Of a DNA stretch of 64,000 nt, positions 38,189 through 49,960 are shown in pieces. Position 1 is the first letter of the stretch. The number at the start of each line of letters is the position of its first letter. The DNA comes from Trypanosoma brucei gambiense DAL972 (Eukaryota; Euglenozoa; Kinetoplastea; Trypanosomatida; Trypanosomatidae): contig NC_026743.1 of NCBI RefSeq assembly GCF_000210295.1, positions 3,410,001 to 3,474,000 on the forward strand, written 5' to 3'. The notes under the pieces were generated by a model. That model was given only the letters and a program-made list of their open reading frames with translations, ran no database searches and was not told the DNA's origin. Made by a program: the position numbers and the translations under genes.

Positions 38189-40198
38189 TTATCTCCGTTT
38201 AACCTTCTTTCCGCTTCTTGTCAACATGAGGTCCTCCCGCAGCCGTTCCACATCGGTCCTGTACGGCTCCCAGAGTTCCATGAATTCGTATTGGAGAGAA
38301 GAGAAGACGGTTGGCTCAAGCGCACGCAGCCCCTGGAAATGTGATTCCACCATTTGATAACCGACAGCCGGAACGGCAACCAACGGCTTCTCGGCCTCTT
38401 TCTTATCGGTAGTTTTTGCCTTCTTGGGTTCTGCCGCCACGGGGGCCACTGGTTTTTCTCGTGCTTCATACGACACCTTGAACATCTCTTCATTCACTGG
38501 GTGTTTGGAAATTACGACATGTGCGATGGAGATGGTCATTTTCGTCAGCAGATCCGTCTCTGTGGCCGCTGCAAACGACACCACGGCTGAGGAGGTGGTT
38601 CTCTTCCTTCGTTTTGAGCTTTTTGGAAGAGGTTCACGGGGTTTCCAACCACGAACAACAGCACGTGAAAAGAAATTGGCCGCAACGTCAAACTTCCTCT
38701 CCTCAAATGCACCATCGGCCAAGATCAACATCGCTTCCGTAATGCTCTCAGGCGGAATCGATGGTCCCTGAGGAGAGGAAAGAGATACCTCTACAAACTT
38801 TTCGTAATCACGCAGCGCCGCTGCACGATCCTCGTGTGAATTTGATGGATACCTTTCACTGCGCTGGTAGAACGCGTTGGCTCGTTGCAGGTACGCCATA
38901 GCTCTGCAATAATGTTCCCCATGCATACTTAACAGAAGTGATAAGTCTACAATCGCATTATTGAAATTCTCCAGCTTCGATGCGTACACAGAAGCACGGC
39001 GCAAAAGCGTTTGTTGCCGCTCCAGCGCCGTCTGCCGGCGATCCAGGGCTTTAGAAAGTTCCTCCAACTCCGACTGCGTATCATTCATCATAGCACACAC
39101 ATCGGCTGCACGAAAGTGATACCTTGCGCAGTTGCTGCGCAGATGCTGAAGATTGCGAAGGTTCTCAAGAGCCAGCGGCACATCACCTGCTGCAATGGCA
39201 CCTTCGGCGGCCTCCTCGAAGGCATTTACGTATTCTACATTTGAGGCAGCCAGTTTGTAGAACTCGCGCGCCTGCCTCATCCGCTCATCTGCTACGCTAC
39301 AACACACGTGCACTTTTTCAGGGGAAGATTCGGCCGAAGCTTGTGAAAGTGACTCCTCTGCCTGCCGGTCCCTCACAAGACCCAAACAATAATACGCATG
39401 AGACTCATAAAAACTTGGTGAATCAAAGAATTTTGGACTCTTCGATGAAGGGGAAAGTATGGTAGAGTTTGACTCCTTTGCAAACCGCAACAACTCACGC
39501 AAGTGGTGTTCGGCACCCTCATAATGACCTGCCTTCAGAGCACATTGACCGGTGTGAGCCAGCATGGCCATGCTGGGCTCGTTAATGAAAAGGTACTTTT
39601 TGTACTCGTTGTACGCGTCGTCGTAATTTCCTAGATGTTCTTGACAGGAGGCTCGCAAGGCATATGTGGCCGAAGTGAGAGGATCTAAACGGCTGCTTAG
39701 TAGAAAGAAATTGAGGGCCTTCTGGTAGTCGCTCTGCCGCATCGCTACCTTCCCTAAGCGAGAGAGAATCCCCGCAACACAACTGTGGTTCTGCTCCGCC
39801 ATGCCTTCGGGTACAATTGCTCCGCTTTGAGTGTCGCCCACTGGATGGTTTCCACCCCGCTGCAACTGCTCTAAAGCAATCTGCAGGTAATTGTTCGCTT
39901 CGGTGAGTTTACCCTCATTCTCCAGTGCATCAGCACGGTCAATACACCATTGGACGGAAACTGCAAAATTCCACGCCGACGACGAGGCACCTTTAATGGT
40001 GGCTTCACGACGTGTGGCGAAAGGTACACCACACGTTCCACCGTAGCGGTCGGAGAAGGTATGATACGCCGGGGGTTCCCGGCCGGACTCAACTACCGAC
40101 CGATGGTACTCCTCAACAAGACGCCGTCTGAAAGCTGGGCAATCGTTTTTTGGCGGCACCACTTTGACGGCGGCGGCCTTTTTCTTTGAATCGCTCAT
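38189..40198 (-). CDS. TPR-repeat protein (669 aa)
   Basis: The gene starts at ATG 40198 (MSDSKKKAAAVKVVPPKND). TPR-like helical pairs run from about residue 85 to 530: WCIDRADALENEGKLTEANN, LGKVAMRQSDYQKALNFF, ALRASCQEHLGNYDDAYNEY, TGQCALKAGHYEGAEHHLRE, EEAAEGAIAAGDVPLALENL and RANAFYQRSERYPSNS, each with the G/A and Y/A positions of the TPR consensus. The C-terminal section is Lys/Ala/Pro-rich (KPVAPVAAEPKKAKTTDKKE) and the last residues are basic (RSGKKVKRR). TPR arrays bind protein partners. Flagellar and assembly TPR proteins look similar, but nothing here fixes the role. It lies between the kinesin-MORN gene and DED1. Confidence 0.9.
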   Translation of the reverse strand: MSDSKKKAAAVKVVPPKNDCPAFRRRLVEEYHRSVVESGREPPAYHTFSDRYGGTCGVPFATRREATIKGASSSAWNFAVSVQWCIDRADALENEGKLTEANNYLQIALEQLQRGGNHPVGDTQSGAIVPEGMAEQNHSCVAGILSRLGKVAMRQSDYQKALNFFLLSSRLDPLTSATYALRASCQEHLGNYDDAYNEYKKYLFINEPSMAMLAHTGQCALKAGHYEGAEHHLRELLRFAKESNSTILSPSSKSPKFFDSPSFYESHAYYCLGLVRDRQAEESLSQASAESSPEKVHVCCSVADERMRQAREFYKLAASNVEYVNAFEEAAEGAIAAGDVPLALENLRNLQHLRSNCARYHFRAADVCAMMNDTQSELEELSKALDRRQTALERQQTLLRRASVYASKLENFNNAIVDLSLLLSMHGEHYCRAMAYLQRANAFYQRSERYPSNSHEDRAAALRDYEKFVEVSLSSPQGPSIPPESITEAMLILADGAFEERKFDVAANFFSRAVVRGWKPREPLPKSSKRRKRTTSSAVVSFAAATETDLLTKMTISIAHVVISKHPVNEEMFKVSYEAREKPVAPVAAEPKKAKTTDKKEAEKPLVAVPAVGYQMVESHFQGLRALEPTVFSSLQYEFMELWEPYRTDVERLREDLMLTRSGKKVKRR

Positions 40199-40566: not shown

Positions 40567-42723
40567 CTACTCTACATCCAAGCCCCATCCCTCGGCAACA
40601 TTCGTCCCAACTGATTCCTCCCCGTCTCTGCTGCTGTTTCCAGCGTCCAAATCATCGCCGCCGCCACTAGTGCTATCAACGTTCTTGGAGAGAGCCCCAA
40701 GGGGTGCAGAAACAAGAGGCGTCCGCCACTCTACATTCATTTCTGGGTACTCTTGAGCACGGCGATCACGTAATTTCAATTGCTCTAGTTCAAGTACCTC
40801 ATCGCAGCGAAGAAGACCCAATCGCGGAATGAAACGGCTGTTTTCATTCGTAGTTTTATCAGGCATATCCAGCATCGTACCACATTTGCAGATACCCTTC
40901 GACCACTCTCCAACAAAATACTGCTGCTTCTGCGTATAGCACCACAAGCCCGGACCTTCGCGAAGACCAAGGGCCCAGTAACCGTCATACCAGTCCCCGC
41001 TTGTTAAACGTAAGATCCCCCTACCGTAGTGCTGATCATCACGGAACTCACCCTTGTAGATATCTCCGTTAGCGAAGAACAACCTCCCAAACCCATCCCG
41101 CTTACCCCCGGACCACCCACCCTCGTAAACATCGCCATTCTCCTCCCACGATATTCCTACACCATCGCGCTTTCCTGCGAGCCATTCCCCACGATAGACA
41201 CGTACCCACGGTGACTTCACATCTTTTCGCAACCAGAGTGTTCCCTCGCCTTCACGTAATCCGTTGCGGAACTCACCCCGGTATTTGCTAAGTTTTTTTA
41301 GTAGTTCACCGAAGCCGCCAAACTTCCCGTCCTCCCACTGACCTTCGTATGATTCGGTCTTACGAGGCGTAAGAAAGATCCGTTTACGCATTCCGTGTGT
41401 GTCCACTTTTCCATGGAGGCGTTGGGCTCGAGTCTTGCAACGCTCAATGATGGCCGCCTCGGGATCCACCGCTGGGGATTTCACGGCCCCACGCCGTGGG
41501 TCAAACCCGTGTAATTTCCGATATATTTGCAATAATTTCTCCTCTGCCTCATTCAGGGGACAGCCATTAGCATCCGAGCCATACAACTCCGCCACAGCTT
41601 CAGCACCGAGTAGCTCCTCTTGCCGGCGCAGCTCTTTCAGCAATAGGCCACGTTCAGACACAACGACTATCGCCTTCAGGGCACAGCGCAACCGGCGGAA
41701 GTACTGCAAGTTTTCAAGCGTGTCAATTGACTCCTTAAACTGCAATGGATTTGTGCATCCAACAACAAAGGAGGCCTCAAGTCCAGAGATGAACTGGGAC
41801 ATTAATCGTGAAAACTTACACTCCATGAAAAATGACTGACTACTGCAGATGAGGTCATGGTGACCCTCTGGGGTTGTCGCCCGCGACCTACGCTTCTCAC
41901 GGTAATTAATAGAATGAATGACTGCTGCTCGAAGAAGAGTTACACTTACGTTGATACCACAACCCTCCTTCAGCTGATCACCTGCAACGCCCTTCAAACC
42001 GAGGCAGTCTGTCCCTTTGAGATGTACAAATGTCATTGAGCGTATTACAGTCTTTCCCGAATCCACTTTGGGAGTTGTGGAAACCATAAGCTGCAGGAAA
42101 CCATGCCAACGACTCTGCCGTTGCTTGGTGCGACGGACACGATTCCTGTTTCCACGTTCAAGTTGTTCGAGAAAATCCTCAAATGTTGGCACCCTAACTG
42201 CCATCAGATTTGGTATGACGAGACGGTCGAAAGTGTCACGGGTAACCGTATACGCTCTCTCTGATCCATCTTCGTCCAGCAAGTTGTCCTCCACGGAGTC
42301 GCGGTTCATCTCCCAATAACGCAGCACAATATCCGTCTCAAATTCCCCCGCAACAGCCCCGAGTCGTTGATAAAGTCCCCCCACCGTGTCATAAATAAGA
42401 CCAACAGATTCGTTGTCCCCGAATAAGGTGTGAGTCTTACCTGTAACAGCAAACCCCATGACAACCACGTTGGAGCTGAGACCTTGAGCAACCAGATCAA
42501 TCATCTCCAAGCCTATCGCATGGTATAGCTCCTCCTGCTTTGCAGAGCAGGGGAAGAAATAGTCACAGTCGTACATCAAACCTTCTGTGGCATCGGGAGA
42601 GTAGGCAAAAAGTTTTCCCTCGCTCTGCCTGACGTGTAATTTCACGCCAAGTATATCCTCTTCCGCAATGGGCCGCTCCCGCACAGCGATACGGACCCGG
42701 TCGAACGAACTGGAATTCTCCAT
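40567..42723 (-). CDS. Divergent kinesin motor fused to MORN repeats (718 aa)
   Basis: The frame is open to a GTG at 42870, with a stop further upstream and no ATG before 42723 (MENSSSFDRVRIAVRERP), which I take as the start. Residues about 8-350 are a kinesin-like motor: RVRIAVRERP opens beta-1, GFAVTGKTHTL (90-100) is an altered P-loop that keeps GKT, and NVSVTLLRAAVIHSI (258-272) matches the relay helix. The nucleotide switches are eroded: QSRWH replaces SSRSH (203-207) and HLKGTD replaces DLAGSE (234-239). Seven MORN repeats follow (about 459-615; YEGQWEDGKFGGFG, YRGEFRNGLREGEG, YEGGWSGGKRDGFG). MORN repeats usually bind membranes or proteins. ATP-driven motility is doubtful; a structural or tethering role is inferred. 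Confidence 0.88.
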   Translation of the reverse strand: MENSSSFDRVRIAVRERPIAEEDILGVKLHVRQSEGKLFAYSPDATEGLMYDCDYFFPCSAKQEELYHAIGLEMIDLVAQGLSSNVVVMGFAVTGKTHTLFGDNESVGLIYDTVGGLYQRLGAVAGEFETDIVLRYWEMNRDSVEDNLLDEDGSERAYTVTRDTFDRLVIPNLMAVRVPTFEDFLEQLERGNRNRVRRTKQRQSRWHGFLQLMVSTTPKVDSGKTVIRSMTFVHLKGTDCLGLKGVAGDQLKEGCGINVSVTLLRAAVIHSINYREKRRSRATTPEGHHDLICSSQSFFMECKFSRLMSQFISGLEASFVVGCTNPLQFKESIDTLENLQYFRRLRCALKAIVVVSERGLLLKELRRQEELLGAEAVAELYGSDANGCPLNEAEEKLLQIYRKLHGFDPRRGAVKSPAVDPEAAIIERCKTRAQRLHGKVDTHGMRKRIFLTPRKTESYEGQWEDGKFGGFGELLKKLSKYRGEFRNGLREGEGTLWLRKDVKSPWVRVYRGEWLAGKRDGVGISWEENGDVYEGGWSGGKRDGFGRLFFANGDIYKGEFRDDQHYGRGILRLTSGDWYDGYWALGLREGPGLWCYTQKQQYFVGEWSKGICKCGTMLDMPDKTTNENSRFIPRLGLLRCDEVLELEQLKLRDRRAQEYPEMNVEWRTPLVSAPLGALSKNVDSTSGGGDDLDAGNSSRDGEESVGTNVAEGWGLDVE

Positions 42724-43053
42724 ACAGTAACGACCCAATGTGCCTCCTTCCAAATTTGATATAACTAAAATGAGCTTGATGCCTACGCAGACAGCGAGAA
42801 AGGTAGTTAACAATTTTAAAAGAAAAAGACGGAGAAGAAGAGAGAAATTACCTGTTGAAAAACGTTTCACTCTTTTTCGGTAGTGTGCGGAAGCTCATGT
42901 CGCCTCTTTGTCTTCACAAGAGCCTGTGAAACAAAAGGGCCTCATTGAACAAAAAAAAAACGAATTCCTCTGTGCATTAGCAAAAACAAGCAATAATAAC
43001 AGAAGAGAAATTAATTCAAAGAAAAATAATTGAAACCACCGTTGACCGCCGAT
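42724..43053. other. Intergenic spacer
   Basis: RPL17 3' UTR and the kinesin-MORN 5' region. A pyrimidine-rich transcribed strand lies at about 42822-42848 (plus-strand purines). No gene. Confidence 0.55.
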
Positions 43054-43554
43054 TTACTTCTTCGGCTTGCTCTTGGGGACGGGCACACGCTCTTGGGGCT
43101 GCGTCATAAAAAGTTGCACGTGGCACGGACTGCGCATGTACGGTGTGATGCGACCATGTGCACGGAACGTACGGCGACGCACGCGAGGGGCCTGATCCAC
43201 CTGAACGTGTTTAATGACCATTTTGCCGGGGTCAAGCCCCTTCTCGATGGCGTTCGCCTCGGCGTTCTTCAACAGCGACAGCATTGCCACAACGGACTTG
43301 CGCGGCCAGCGTCCCTTCGTCTGCCCCCATTCCTTCGCTTGTGCTGTGTTACCAATCTTTCCATTGTAGCGCTTGAAGGGAATGCAGCGGGTTTTGGCCA
43401 GGACTTGACGGTACAGCTGCTGCGCTTTGCGGAGCTTCATACCGTTGATCACATTAGCCGTCTCGAAGGTATTCTTGTAGTGGCACCGGAGGTCGGCGAT
43501 CTTCGCCTTGGCCGTCTTCGAGGAAACCTGTGGCTTGCGGGAGTAATGCACCAT
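43054..43554 (-). CDS. RPL17: 60S ribosomal protein L17 (uL22)
   Basis: A 166-residue protein starting at ATG 43554 (MVHYSRKPQVSSKTAKAKI). It matches eukaryotic RPL17 of the uL22 family from end to end, with NTFETANVINGMKLRKAQQ, IPFKRYNGKIGNTAQAKEWG, GRWPRKSVVAMLSLLKNAEA, HVQVDQAPRVRRRTFRAHGR and a Lys/Pro-rich C-terminus. uL22 lines the peptide exit tunnel of the large subunit. Upstream, only about 20 bases separate the ATG from a long TA run that ends in AATAG, so the spliced 5' UTR is probably very short. Length is normal for a kinetoplastid L17. Confidence 0.97.
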   Translation of the reverse strand: MVHYSRKPQVSSKTAKAKIADLRCHYKNTFETANVINGMKLRKAQQLYRQVLAKTRCIPFKRYNGKIGNTAQAKEWGQTKGRWPRKSVVAMLSLLKNAEANAIEKGLDPGKMVIKHVQVDQAPRVRRRTFRAHGRITPYMRSPCHVQLFMTQPQERVPVPKSKPKK

Positions 43555-43573: not shown

Positions 43574-43608
<35 letters not shown>

Positions 43609-43906: not shown

Positions 43907-44842
43907 TTACTTTCCCGCCTTACAACCCGCAATAATAGATTTCACGCGCGGAATGACTCTCGCGGCGATCGGTTGCAACCGGGGAACAAGACGTGGGGCC
44001 AGCACCACGGTGACAGCCACCTCCAAAGGCACAAGAAGCTTGTTCAGTAGAATTGAAAGAGCCAAAGCAGTCCAAAATGAGGGATATTTCTTCTCTCCCT
44101 TCCCGTTGCCGCTATCCACATCTGTAGATGGTGCCTCGGAAGTACCGTCCTCTTTTCCAACTTTGAACCCGTACGACCGAGCGTAAGCAACAACGTCGAT
44201 GTGAAGAAAGTACAAGGTAAAGAAAATAATAGCCAATAAGATGTTGTGAACGATGAGGTAAAGGAGCAAACCACCCGCACCGTAAGCGGCCAGTTTATGT
44301 TTTAAACCAGAAACCCCGTGCGGTGACGGCCCCGATGGTGGAGGAGGATTAACGTCCGGTGGAAAACCGCTACACGAGGACGAGGATGAACCGAAGCCGT
44401 CCGTATTCCCTACTATTCCGTTGGTCTTCACACCTGGGGAACCACTGTTTCTAAAAACACGATTCGCTTCGTCAACGAAAAGTTTTTGGCGTCGGTGATA
44501 CGTTGGGAAGCGGGTCGTGAACCCCTCAGGGACTTCGAACGTTGTTACATTGGTTACAAGATGATGGTAGTACGGCTTACGGTACTGCAATGAAAAATAT
44601 TCACGCCAAACCACACACGGATCGTCATAATGGGGAATCTCATTGCTTGTTATTGTAGCAGCAAACATCGGGCAAGGACGAGCCACACACATCGCGGCTC
44701 TAACCGCCGGTAGGACAACGCCTCTTCCAACAGCATGCTGATCCTTCACACCGTTCGACGGCGGGGCTACGCCGCTTGCCGCGTCATGTGCAAGACATCG
44801 GCATAAACCTACGTTTAACCTCACACAAGCTATCCGCCGCAT
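43907..44842 (-). CDS. WW-like plus DUF1279 (FAM210-like) membrane protein
   Basis: The frame is open to a TTG at 45016, but the upstream part contains a splice-tract-like stretch, so ATG 44842 (MRRIACVRLNVGLCRCLAH) is the likely start, giving 311 residues. The N-terminus is basic, short of acidic residues and fits a mitochondrial targeting signal. Residues about 77-107 resemble a WW domain (two aromatic anchors, RKPYYHHLVTNVTTFEVPEG). A Gly/Ser/Pro-rich linker precedes a DUF1279/FAM210-type domain (about 180-295) with the signature AAYGAGGLLLYLIVHN and a hydrophobic segment ILLAIIFFTLYFLHIDV, then a second hydrophobic stretch near 265-285. FAM210 proteins are mitochondrial membrane proteins. 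The WW-like module in front is unusual. Confidence 0.8.
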   Translation of the reverse strand: MRRIACVRLNVGLCRCLAHDAASGVAPPSNGVKDQHAVGRGVVLPAVRAAMCVARPCPMFAATITSNEIPHYDDPCVVWREYFSLQYRKPYYHHLVTNVTTFEVPEGFTTRFPTYHRRQKLFVDEANRVFRNSGSPGVKTNGIVGNTDGFGSSSSSCSGFPPDVNPPPPSGPSPHGVSGLKHKLAAYGAGGLLLYLIVHNILLAIIFFTLYFLHIDVVAYARSYGFKVGKEDGTSEAPSTDVDSGNGKGEKKYPSFWTALALSILLNKLLVPLEVAVTVVLAPRLVPRLQPIAARVIPRVKSIIAGCKAGK

Positions 44843-45080
44843 CAAGTCCTTCAACGCAGTAATATGGAAGAAGATCTTCAAAAAAAAATTATGAAGGGAA
44901 AGAGTCACTACAGTAGCCACAAAACGGGTAAACGAAACGAACGAAACAGACATGAAAGCACAGACAAGATGCTTTCCAATCGAAGACCTCCTAAGCAGAG
45001 GGGAGCACGTTGTCAAAAAAAAAAAGAAAATAACAAAAACAGTTGCCGTCCATCAGGCTTTTGCAGTGAGCACCAATGCT

Positions 45081-46358: not shown

Positions 46359-49300
46359 CTACACCGTTGCGACTACCTGCGTTAGATGCTCCATGCGGCG
46401 AGCGGTGAGTGTGGCCTCCAGTTGGCCAAGGGCATCCTCGGCATCTACAGCGCCATCGAAGCGCAAAAGCACACCGAGGTCGACAAACAACAAACTCTTT
46501 ATTTGCCGTATAACCTCCGCCAACACCGGAAGGTGCGACTCCATTTCCAGCTTGCGGCTCCACAAGGAGAGTAGCTCTAATCTAGTGGCGTTGGAACGCA
46601 ACAACTCAGCGAAATTCAGCAACTCACCCGCAGTAAAAGGGTTGTCAGACACAATAAGTTCCTGCAGAGACCCCAGTACTTCGTCTGGGAAAGCTTTAGC
46701 ATCAGCCACTTCGGCATTCTTAATACTAAGAAACCTGAGGCCTGACGGCTTGAGGAACTTAAAGGTTGCCGATACACCCGCTGCCCCGAGAGGTATTTGA
46801 TCAAGCGACAATCTCTCCAGTGTTCCCTTACACCGAGATAGTAGGCATCCGAGTGCACCACCACCTTCAGCACCACCCAGGTTGTTACGCGACAACTGTA
46901 ACTCCCGCAACACAAAGTTGCCTTCCGGGGATGCTCCGGACCACTTCAGAATGTGCTCTGGTCCCAATTCATTGCCATTAAGATGAAGGATATCCAAACG
47001 GCTGCATAATCCACCCAGTGCCTCGACCTCATCGTCACCCCAACACTGGGAGAGGTCGTTAAAACCTAATAACAGTGTTGTGATATTACCAGCAGCAACT
47101 GCAGACAAAAGTTCAAAAAAACAGGAAGACTTGGAACCCTCTTGGTTGACGTCCGGGCACTCCGATGAATCGGGTAGTCCCTCCCCCAATACCTCCGTAC
47201 CCGCTTCATGAGACAGCTCGACAAACCCAATGCGATTACCCTCAAGTGAAAGCGAAGTAATCGTCTTGTTGGTACGCAAACTCTCAGCCAGTGCGCGGAT
47301 GGTTTCCGGGTACATGTCGTTGTACGCTAGATCAAGCACCTTAAGCGTGTTATTGCGACGAAGAGCCGCGAAGAGAGAAGAACAACCGGGCGTAACACCG
47401 CTGGGCACATCCACGACACTCGGCGCAACTGCCTCATCCCCATCGCTTGCAACATCTTCAACTACCTTTGCCGCGCGCTTCCTCCCGAAGACATTGCGGC
47501 GCAAAAGAAGGCACTCTACCGTCTTATTTTCCGCGAGGACGTTTCCGATATGCTTCATTCCGTGGCTTCCAATCTGGCAACTTCCAAGGTCCAGTACTCG
47601 AAGGAAAGGAACGCAGCGTTTTTGTGAAGTAACGGGTATACTCCATTTTCCGAGAACATCCAGAAGCGCCGATATTTCCTCCTCTATGTTATTGACATCC
47701 CCTTCTCCATCCGGGCTGGGTATGTGCTGATCATCTTCGTGCACCACCTGTTCCTGTTCTTCGTCCCCCCCGTGCTGGTCCTCGTCAAATTCCCCACCAT
47801 AATCACTTGCTGCGCCAAAAGTGGCTGTTTCGTCAATAGCCAAGACGTCTGCACTTGCCCTTGAGTTCCCTGTAATCCACGCCTTAAAGGTTTGTAACCA
47901 CAAGAGGTACTCAGATTGCATCCGGTCACGCTCGCGCGACTCCTCAACCAGCGTCCTCTTGTAATCTACTGTCAATTTGTTGAGCAGTCGGTCCGCATCG
48001 TTCGATAAATCCTTTTGGATACGCTCTTCCTCCTCCTCCTCAAGCTGTAACTCGTGCCGTAACGCAGAGGCTAAAGCAACGGCACCTTTATTCCCAATGG
48101 GGTTGCCACGCAGACGAAGGACCTGTATGTGTGACCACCCGCTCCGGCGCCTGCAGTACTTGTCAATCTCAACACGTTTTTCTTCAGCCAATTCCTCACG
48201 GATGATGGCGTGCTCCTCCATCAGCAATGAAGCCTCACGTACATATTGATTAGCACAACCCCGGCGTAACTCCCTCTCCTCCTTGTATAGCCTACGAAAT
48301 AGGCGGTTGAACTTCCTCTCTAGATGTGGTGGAAGGGGTTTGGGCTTTCCTTCTCCCTCTTCATCCTCCTCCTCTTCTTCTTCCTCCTCCCCTTCCTCTT
48401 CCGCATCCCCGTCAGCCGCGTCCTCCTGCTGCTCCTCATTCCCTTCATCCTCTTCATCCTCCTCGTCGTCATTTTCATTATCCGACCCATCTTTCATTAG
48501 TGGTGAACCACCTTCCTGTGTGCCATCTTGGTCGGTGCCCTCTTCCTCCACGGGGTCCTCTACTTCCTCGTCATCTTCAAAATCATCCCCTTCATCCTCT
48601 TCTTCATCCTGGCCAATAAAAAAGGAAACGGATTCAAGACCAACACCATCATCCTCCTCGTCCACAACAGCATCTTCCTCCCCATCTTGCACATCCTGAG
48701 GATAGAGCCGTGTGTCAGACTTCACGAGGGCTTCCAGCAGCTGCTGCGCCGTTATCCCATTGATGTTATTATTATTAAGGTTCAGGTCGACAACGAACTT
48801 ATTAAACTTAATAAATTCGACAAGTTGCGCTAACGCATCGCTGTCATCCTTCGTCAGACCTAAGTCATTGCCTTCAAGATCCAGAACGCGAATCATCGTA
48901 TCCTTCAGCATCGGCAGCAGTGACTCAGCAACCCGACCAAACTTTGTGTTGGGCAAACCCAACACCTCAAGCTCCTTTGCTCCATGAAAAAAATTCTGGA
49001 AATCGTCAATTGAAGAACCTTCAACGAACTCACCGGAAACTGTAAGGGAACGAAGATGCCCCAACATACGGTGGTTTGCACATATAACGGTAAAAATGTC
49101 ATGAATCGCAACAGTTTTCGCCGGTGCTAACATGAGAGTGACATGTCGCATATTATCCGATGTCCTGTAGTCTTTGGATTGCGCCTCCGTTCGTACAATG
49201 TGATTAAGAAAATCCACTATTTGATCTGAGGGAAGCTGAACATTCGAAAGAGCTTCGGGTGACGGAAACGCATTCCATATGTGTGAGGTATGGTAACCTA

Positions 49301-49670
49301 CAAGTGGCTGACCTCTTGGAGTCGTACAGCGGACCTCATCCTCAACATTCGCAACAAGTGGTTGGGTACCGTCAGAAAAAACGCGCGCGGCAGAACAACT
49401 ACTGCATGGCCACCATGCCAAATTAGATCTAGAACATACAATAGACGCGTTGAACCGTAAAATTGAACACTCCACTTCCCGCGCCACCTCCGCCTCAAGA
49501 GCCTTGGCTGCAATGCCGTGTTGGGCCGCGATATCACCCTTTACTTTCGCACTGTTTACCCGTGGAGGAGCAGCAGCAACTCCACTTTCTGCGGCACAAC
49601 TCCCCAAATGCAAACTATCAAACTGCACAGCATCGTCGGCGGAGGAAAATGTACACCATGATCGTGACAT
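46359..49670 (-). CDS. Ribonuclease-inhibitor-type LRR protein with acidic insert (1103 aa)
   Basis: The frame opens with a GTG at 49673; the next codon is ATG 49670 (MSRSWCTFSSADDAVQF), taken as start. Leucine-rich repeats of the long RI type occur in several blocks: IRVLDLEGNDLG and VVDLNLNNNNINGITAQQLL near 275-325, LRGNPIGNKGAVALASAL near 525, LRVLDLGSCQIGSHGMKHIG and LKVLDLAYNDMYPETIRAL near 695-800, and LRELQLSRNNLGG near 930. Between blocks 1 and 2 is a very acidic insert (about residues 350-450, long Glu/Asp runs). RI-type LRRs bind proteins; the acidic insert could bind basic proteins such as histones or tubulin-associated factors, which is only inference. Of eukaryotic NLR type by fold, but with no NTPase domain. 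Confidence 0.9.
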   Translation of the reverse strand: MSRSWCTFSSADDAVQFDSLHLGSCAAESGVAAAPPRVNSAKVKGDIAAQHGIAAKALEAEVAREVECSILRFNASIVCSRSNLAWWPCSSCSAARVFSDGTQPLVANVEDEVRCTTPRGQPLVGYHTSHIWNAFPSPEALSNVQLPSDQIVDFLNHIVRTEAQSKDYRTSDNMRHVTLMLAPAKTVAIHDIFTVICANHRMLGHLRSLTVSGEFVEGSSIDDFQNFFHGAKELEVLGLPNTKFGRVAESLLPMLKDTMIRVLDLEGNDLGLTKDDSDALAQLVEFIKFNKFVVDLNLNNNNINGITAQQLLEALVKSDTRLYPQDVQDGEEDAVVDEEDDGVGLESVSFFIGQDEEEDEGDDFEDDEEVEDPVEEEGTDQDGTQEGGSPLMKDGSDNENDDEEDEEDEGNEEQQEDAADGDAEEEGEEEEEEEEDEEGEGKPKPLPPHLERKFNRLFRRLYKEERELRRGCANQYVREASLLMEEHAIIREELAEEKRVEIDKYCRRRSGWSHIQVLRLRGNPIGNKGAVALASALRHELQLEEEEEERIQKDLSNDADRLLNKLTVDYKRTLVEESRERDRMQSEYLLWLQTFKAWITGNSRASADVLAIDETATFGAASDYGGEFDEDQHGGDEEQEQVVHEDDQHIPSPDGEGDVNNIEEEISALLDVLGKWSIPVTSQKRCVPFLRVLDLGSCQIGSHGMKHIGNVLAENKTVECLLLRRNVFGRKRAAKVVEDVASDGDEAVAPSVVDVPSGVTPGCSSLFAALRRNNTLKVLDLAYNDMYPETIRALAESLRTNKTITSLSLEGNRIGFVELSHEAGTEVLGEGLPDSSECPDVNQEGSKSSCFFELLSAVAAGNITTLLLGFNDLSQCWGDDEVEALGGLCSRLDILHLNGNELGPEHILKWSGASPEGNFVLRELQLSRNNLGGAEGGGALGCLLSRCKGTLERLSLDQIPLGAAGVSATFKFLKPSGLRFLSIKNAEVADAKAFPDEVLGSLQELIVSDNPFTAGELLNFAELLRSNATRLELLSLWSRKLEMESHLPVLAEVIRQIKSLLFVDLGVLLRFDGAVDAEDALGQLEATLTARRMEHLTQVVATV

Positions 49671-49960
49671 CACAAATATATTTACTCCTATCCTACACAG
49701 ATAACAATCAGGTCACAACAAGGTAAAAAAGAAAAAGAAAAATAACTAAACTACCAACAAACACACCAAAGTACAAACCGTACATAACTCTAATTAACAT
49801 ATGCTACGAACCTTCATGCATCACCAAATAAAAACATAACAAACAAAAAGACACATTAACCAGAATTTTTTAAAAAAAACAAAAATAAAAATATACATAA
49901 ACTAGGATCACCAAAAAAAAAAAATTATCATACAAAGCAACAACACAACATCTAAACTAT

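Follow-up and report, generated by a model that had tools for sequence, protein, structure and literature searches.

A minus-strand open reading frame (ORF) at positions 40567-42723 of a 64,000-nucleotide stretch of the Trypanosoma brucei gambiense DAL972 genome (assembly GCF_000210295.1, contig NC_026743.1, forward-strand positions 3,410,001 to 3,474,000; hereafter the window) encodes kinesin-MORN, a 718-residue protein in which a kinesin motor domain is followed by seven MORN hairpins. We propose, with a probability of roughly 0.78, that kinesin-MORN is the Euglenozoan MORN3/FAP207 with a catalytically dead kinesin fused to its N-terminus; the MORN half would anchor the protein at the base of a radial spoke, and the motor would act there as a static, bracing pseudo-motor that probably still holds nucleotide.

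Kinesin-MORN is a component of the axonemal 96-nm repeat, judged by sequence and by the titles of two PDB entries. Residues 1-718 are identical to chain 9e5c_4y of 9E5C (96-nm doublet repeat of the T. brucei flagellum), labelled there MORN repeat-containing protein 3, and the two are the same protein without any difference. Chain 9y6s_8a of 9Y6S (the same repeat from Leishmania tarentolae), labelled Kinesin-MORN, is the 717-residue orthologue (592.9 bits). From name, architecture and contig we infer that the ORF corresponds to Tb927.10.14570, whose kinesin-MORN eYFP fusion was located on the 9+2 axoneme in 2017 (PMC5540225). The protein is thus already known, in print as kinesin-MORN since 2017 and modelled in 9E5C and 9Y6S, which limits the surprise of the present findings. 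The 9E5C work is cited as Xia 2025 in PMC12637542, the main text of which contains neither 'MORN' nor 'kinesin'. Kinesin and MORN matches coincide at one place only in the genome (22.1 Mb, 11 contigs), namely at this ORF. The reading frame also has a GTG farther upstream, at 42870, but the ATG at 42723 is where the solved chain starts. The parts of the gene are as follows (window coordinates).

40567..42723, minus strand: whole coding sequence, 718 residues and stop (ORF; identical to PDB chain 9e5c_4y)
41689..42702, minus strand: kinesin motor domain, residues ~8-345 (Pfam PF00225; AlphaFold2; structure comparison)
42433..42456, minus strand: P-loop GFAVTGKT, residues 90-97 (family alignment)
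42103..42126, minus strand: switch I KQRQSRWH, residues 200-207 (family alignment)
42007..42024, minus strand: switch II HLKGTD, residues 234-239 (family alignment)
41833..41904, minus strand: family insertion between alpha4 and loop 12, approximate, residues ~274-297 (AlphaFold2; spacing counts)
41824..41826, minus strand: M300, at the loop-12 place of kinesin-1 Arg278 (family alignment; T. brucei kinesin control)
40744..41442, minus strand: MORN3/FAP207-like half with non-repeat flanks, residues ~428-660 (sequence and structure comparison)
40867..41352, minus strand: seven MORN beta-hairpins, residues 458-619 (AlphaFold2)
40741..40806, minus strand: C-terminal helix past the MORN repeats, common to MORN3, residues 640-661 (alignment; AlphaFold2)
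40570..40701, minus strand: tail of low confidence and poor conservation, residues 675-718 (predicted local distance difference test score, pLDDT, <50; column entropy)

Fold and conservation of the motor

The architecture originally predicted from the DNA, a kinesin motor fused to seven MORN repeats, was confirmed by Pfam, AlphaFold2 and structure comparison. Profile searches were significant for both halves, with E 1.6e-28 for the kinesin motor (above the cut-off) and E 1e-15 for the MORN repeats, of which four stretches were individually significant. The AlphaFold2 model (47-row family alignment as input; mean pLDDT 84.7, predicted template modelling score 0.67) contains the motor in full, a linker that is helical in part, the seven hairpins (458-619), the 640-661 helix and a tail that is disordered, and its motor has a kinesin fold according to the Pfam profile, the model itself and structure comparison. 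A Foldseek search with this model placed 9y6s_8a second, and this chain was not among the 50 rows listed by VIA-align. The root-mean-square deviation from 9E5C was 5.2 over 655 residues and 2.5 over 227 residues for the MORN half alone; the free model is therefore no reliable guide to the angle at which the halves are joined.

The family comprised 49 proteins by single-sequence search and 50 by profile search (best 7,998 candidates scored). Named members come from Trypanosoma, Leishmania, Leptomonas, Strigomonas, Novymonas, Porcisia, Angomonas and the euglenid Eutreptiella gymnastica, many others are metagenome or transcriptome records, and none of the matches listed is a kinesin-MORN3 fusion with a non-Euglenozoan name. 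Our alignment (A1, 47 rows) omits P0048 and P0049 of the 49 single-sequence matches as outside the family, and P0050, P0051 and P0052 from the profile search are not part of it; since P0046 begins at switch II, P-loop and switch I counts are out of 46. Places named Ser201, Ser202, Arg203, Asp231, Ala233, Gly234, Glu236, Asn255 and Arg278 refer to kinesin-1 positions.

Conservation of the motor comes close to that of the MORN part and greatly exceeds that of the linker and the tail. Mean column entropy is 1.44 bits in the motor, 1.32 in the MORN part, 2.24 in the linker, 1.85 in residues 631-662 and highest, at 2.69, in the tail (663-718); identity to T. congolense is 69% for the motor and 82% for the MORN part.

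Loss of switch and microtubule-contact residues

The P-loop pattern GxxxxGK[ST] is kept, with G90, G95, K96 and T97 identical in all 46 rows, as expected from the intact GKT reported in the original prediction. The two deviations noted there, QSRWH for SSRSH and HLKGTD for DLAGSE, proved to be real and family-wide. Switch I departs from N-x-x-S-S-R-S-H: R205, W206 and H207 are identical in 46/46 rows, so that the last serine is always Trp, and the catalytic serines are mostly gone, Ser occupying the Ser201 place in two rows and the Ser202 place in four (the others there being mostly Ala, 20, and Phe, 17). Switch II departs from DxxGxE in that the aspartate is lost in all 47 rows (His at the Asp231 place in 41, Gln in six); K236 at the Ala233 place and G237 at the Gly234 place are invariant (47/47 each), and residue 239, at the Glu236 place, is Asp in 33 rows and Glu in 14. 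The Asn255 place is kept in 47/47 rows, and the Arg-acid latch pair is R/D in 32 and R/E in 14 of the rows having both. The N-terminal RxRP, a motif with an adenine-side role, has R15 in 44/44 filled rows, R17 in 40/44 and P18 in 42/44. The partial members P0050 and P0051, outside A1, show the same motifs, and among the 47 rows and these two no homologue with canonical switches was found. Erosion restricted to T. brucei, or a wrong gene model, was rejected on the grounds that the changes are family-wide and that an identical chain has been solved.

W206 (46/46) and K236 (47/47) are invariant new residues where other kinesins have Ser and Ala, and might provide a new contact within the dead pocket.

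Work on kinesin-1 (PMC4924600) describes switch I serines that touch the gamma-phosphate, the lytic water and Mg, an Asp231 that is paired with Arg190 when ATP is bound and holds Mg when ADP is bound, a latch between the switches made by Arg203-Glu236, and an Asn255 that connects helix 4 to switch I. Projected onto the family sequences, these roles suggest that nucleotide-holding and latch residues have been kept and that readers of the gamma-phosphate and Mg have been lost. Because the P-loop and the adenine-side RxRP are retained, nucleotide is probably still held.

As a control, we aligned 12 family rows with 46 other T. brucei motor rows, a set that includes the near-copy pairs L016/L017 and L027/L028 and from which four ORF pieces had been dropped because of their length. 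Out of 46, the control rows keep the P-loop Lys in 44, Ser201 in 43, Ser202 in 43, Arg203 in 44, Asp231 in 44, Gly234 in 44, Glu236 in 43, Asn255 in 44 and Arg278 in 44, whereas the kinesin-MORN family has kept the P-loop Lys, Arg203, Gly234 and Asn255 and lost the serines, Asp231 and Arg278. A quick tree was built from 53 of these rows, nine from the family and 44 from T. brucei kinesins, with two T. brucei and three of the twelve family rows left out. The family forms one group in it (SH-like approximate likelihood-ratio test, SH-aLRT, 100), on a long stem of 1.73 and without a supported sister.

Eroded motors are not unique to kinesin-MORN, because three more T. brucei kinesin-like motors have divergent switch or P-loop motifs: L048 (C6:631500-637500), L049 (C7:1150000-1155500; switch II VVELSSVGC) and L053 (C11:2854500-2859000; P-loop GGAGSGRVY).

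The microtubule face of the family is altered as well. At the place of the loop-12 contact residue, which we take to be the one numbered Arg278 in kinesin-1, Arg occurs in 0/47 rows (Met in 38, Ala in five, and Ser, Gln, Val and Gly in one each). Asn255 and loop 12 are separated by at least 44 residues in 46/47 family rows (35 in one row) and by 24 to 46 in the 46 other T. brucei rows, reaching at least 44 in 1/46; AlphaFold2 models an extra helix (285-299) in this insertion between alpha4 and loop 12. Kinesin makes its principal microtubule contacts through the switch II helix and loop 12 (PMC4383081). From trypanosomatids to a euglenid, a kinesin fold has been held under strong constraint, as a fixed part of the 96-nm repeat, after losing its switch and microtubule-contact residues.

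Relationship to MORN3/FAP207 and a proposed radial-spoke-base position

The C-terminal half aligns in one stretch with residues 8-237 of the 241 of MORN3 and 14-249 of the 256 of FAP207; a generic MORN fusion was rejected, as the match extends through the non-repeat flanks of MORN3. Like MORN3 (human, bovine) and FAP207 (Chlamydomonas), kinesin-MORN has a MORN array, N- and C-terminal flanks and an axonemal doublet location; unlike these two proteins, both of which are without a kinesin domain, it carries a 430-residue motor and linker in front. In a translated search with a single protein it was the only MORN3-family copy in the genome (208 bits; next match 64 bits, repeats only), without any separate MORN3. 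Among the matches listed (120 of 293) there was no stand-alone MORN3 from Euglenozoa, though a copy may exist elsewhere; the closest four Euglenozoan-looking matches among those listed (P0053, P0054, P0071 and P0074) are short-contig fragments or pieces of one split gene. P0051, P0071 and P0074, all on 12,638-base contigs, seemingly represent one kinesin-MORN gene split into several ORFs by an intron, a frameshift or the assembly.

FAP207 has been modelled at the base of radial spokes 1 and 2 (RS1 and RS2), where inner arm dynein c (IDAc) docks to RS2 via FAP207 and p28 (PMC12399478), and MORN3 has been fitted in the RS2 stalk and base (PMC10774353). By analogy, the relationship of the MORN half to these proteins, its closest relatives, points to a more specific role than the tether originally predicted, at radial-spoke bases, and we would place kinesin-MORN at such a base in T. 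brucei. This offers a specific explanation for possible differences between the spoke bases of trypanosomes and those found in algae and animals, as well as a testable link to the missing or relocated IDAc, which is not RS2-associated in L. tarentolae and is absent from T. brucei (PMC12637542).

Proposed role and alternative readings

Based on these data, we propose the following hypothetical arrangement, in which (i) the MORN half would anchor the protein in the spoke-base complex; (ii) the pseudo-motor would be a static structural module, frozen in one state, perhaps with nucleotide, and incapable of the normal cycle of hydrolysis and stepping; and (iii) this module would serve as a brace between the spoke base and either the doublet or an adjacent axonemal protein. 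The original prediction had been a conserved, inactive, microtubule-linked tether. Its conservation, its fold and its axonemal-doublet location stand; sequence and location support the notion of a non-motile tether and suggest that ATPase activity has been lost.

Other non-catalytic kinesins offer partial parallels. Kif26b, which is without DLAGSE, has no ATPase activity yet has been reported to bind microtubules (PMC3387196), and may by analogy serve as a precedent for a tether. KIF26A and KIF26B (kinesin-11, non-ATPase) resemble kinesin-MORN in combining a kinesin fold with a lost switch motif; unlike kinesin-MORN with its retained GKT, they are also without the usual P-loop-region motif, have no MORN part and are located elsewhere. 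Vik1 acts as the heterodimer partner of an active motor, and we know of no such partner for kinesin-MORN. As predicted here for kinesin-MORN, the motor domain of the Vik1-type partner of the kinesin-14 Kar3 is non-catalytic and has a structural role (PMC4338441).

A bolder and rather doubtful proposal is that in Euglenozoa the pseudo-kinesin on MORN3 replaces the docking partner of IDAc at the RS2 base, working as an integral clamp by which the dynein site is occupied or obstructed. It is prompted by the docking of IDAc through FAP207 and p28 in Chlamydomonas, by the relocation (L. tarentolae) or absence (T. brucei) of this dynein, and by the dead kinesin that the FAP207 relative carries in both trypanosomatids. 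If true, the kinesin fold would be a structural replacement in a dynein-docking complex.

The retained P-loop, RxRP, Gly234, Asn255 and Arg-Asp/Glu latch amount to more than pure scaffolding needs, and would suit a nucleotide-sensing switch, in which the ATP- or ADP-bound domain changes shape with the energy state of the flagellum or with doublet bending and tunes the spoke base without stepping. However, nearly every row has substitutions at the Ser201, Ser202 and Asp231 places, and given the roles of these residues as gamma-phosphate and Mg readers in kinesin-1 (PMC4924600), ATP and ADP would be hard to distinguish; we consider such a switch unlikely. The kinesin fold, the GKT, the latch pair and Asn255 could belong to an atypical but active motor, for example one that brings the MORN3 part into the flagellum and stays parked after arrival. 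This is very unlikely, as the family has lost the loop-12 Arg, the Asp of switch II and the serines of switch I, each of which is kept by 43 or 44 of the 46 other T. brucei kinesin rows, and has the long insertion after alpha4 that sets all but one of its rows apart from all but one of the others. At the opposite extreme, the loss of catalytic residues might mark the motor as a passive relic, functionless in itself and present only through the fusion, which we regard as scarcely credible: the constraint on the motor columns, far above that on the linker and tail, disfavours it, W206 and K236 hint at a structural role that is new, and the fusion has been retained from trypanosomatids to the euglenid E. 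gymnastica.

Neighbouring genes

Several neighbours of kinesin-MORN lie on the minus strand of the window. A 669-residue tetratricopeptide repeat protein is encoded at 38189-40198; every PDB sequence match that it has at E 1e-10 or better is to an engineered protein of this repeat class, with no sign among them of a modelled axonemal protein. The single PDB match at that threshold of a 1104-residue leucine-rich-repeat protein (46359-49673) is LRRC34 of the bovine sperm doublet (9fqr, E 2.9e-11), confined to the repeats. A run of TA dinucleotides (43577-43606) is found just upstream of a ribosomal L22/L17 family gene (43054-43554), and one ORF at 43907-45016 combines a FAM210-like domain with a WW-like match that falls short of the curated cut-off (24.3 vs 26.9 bits).
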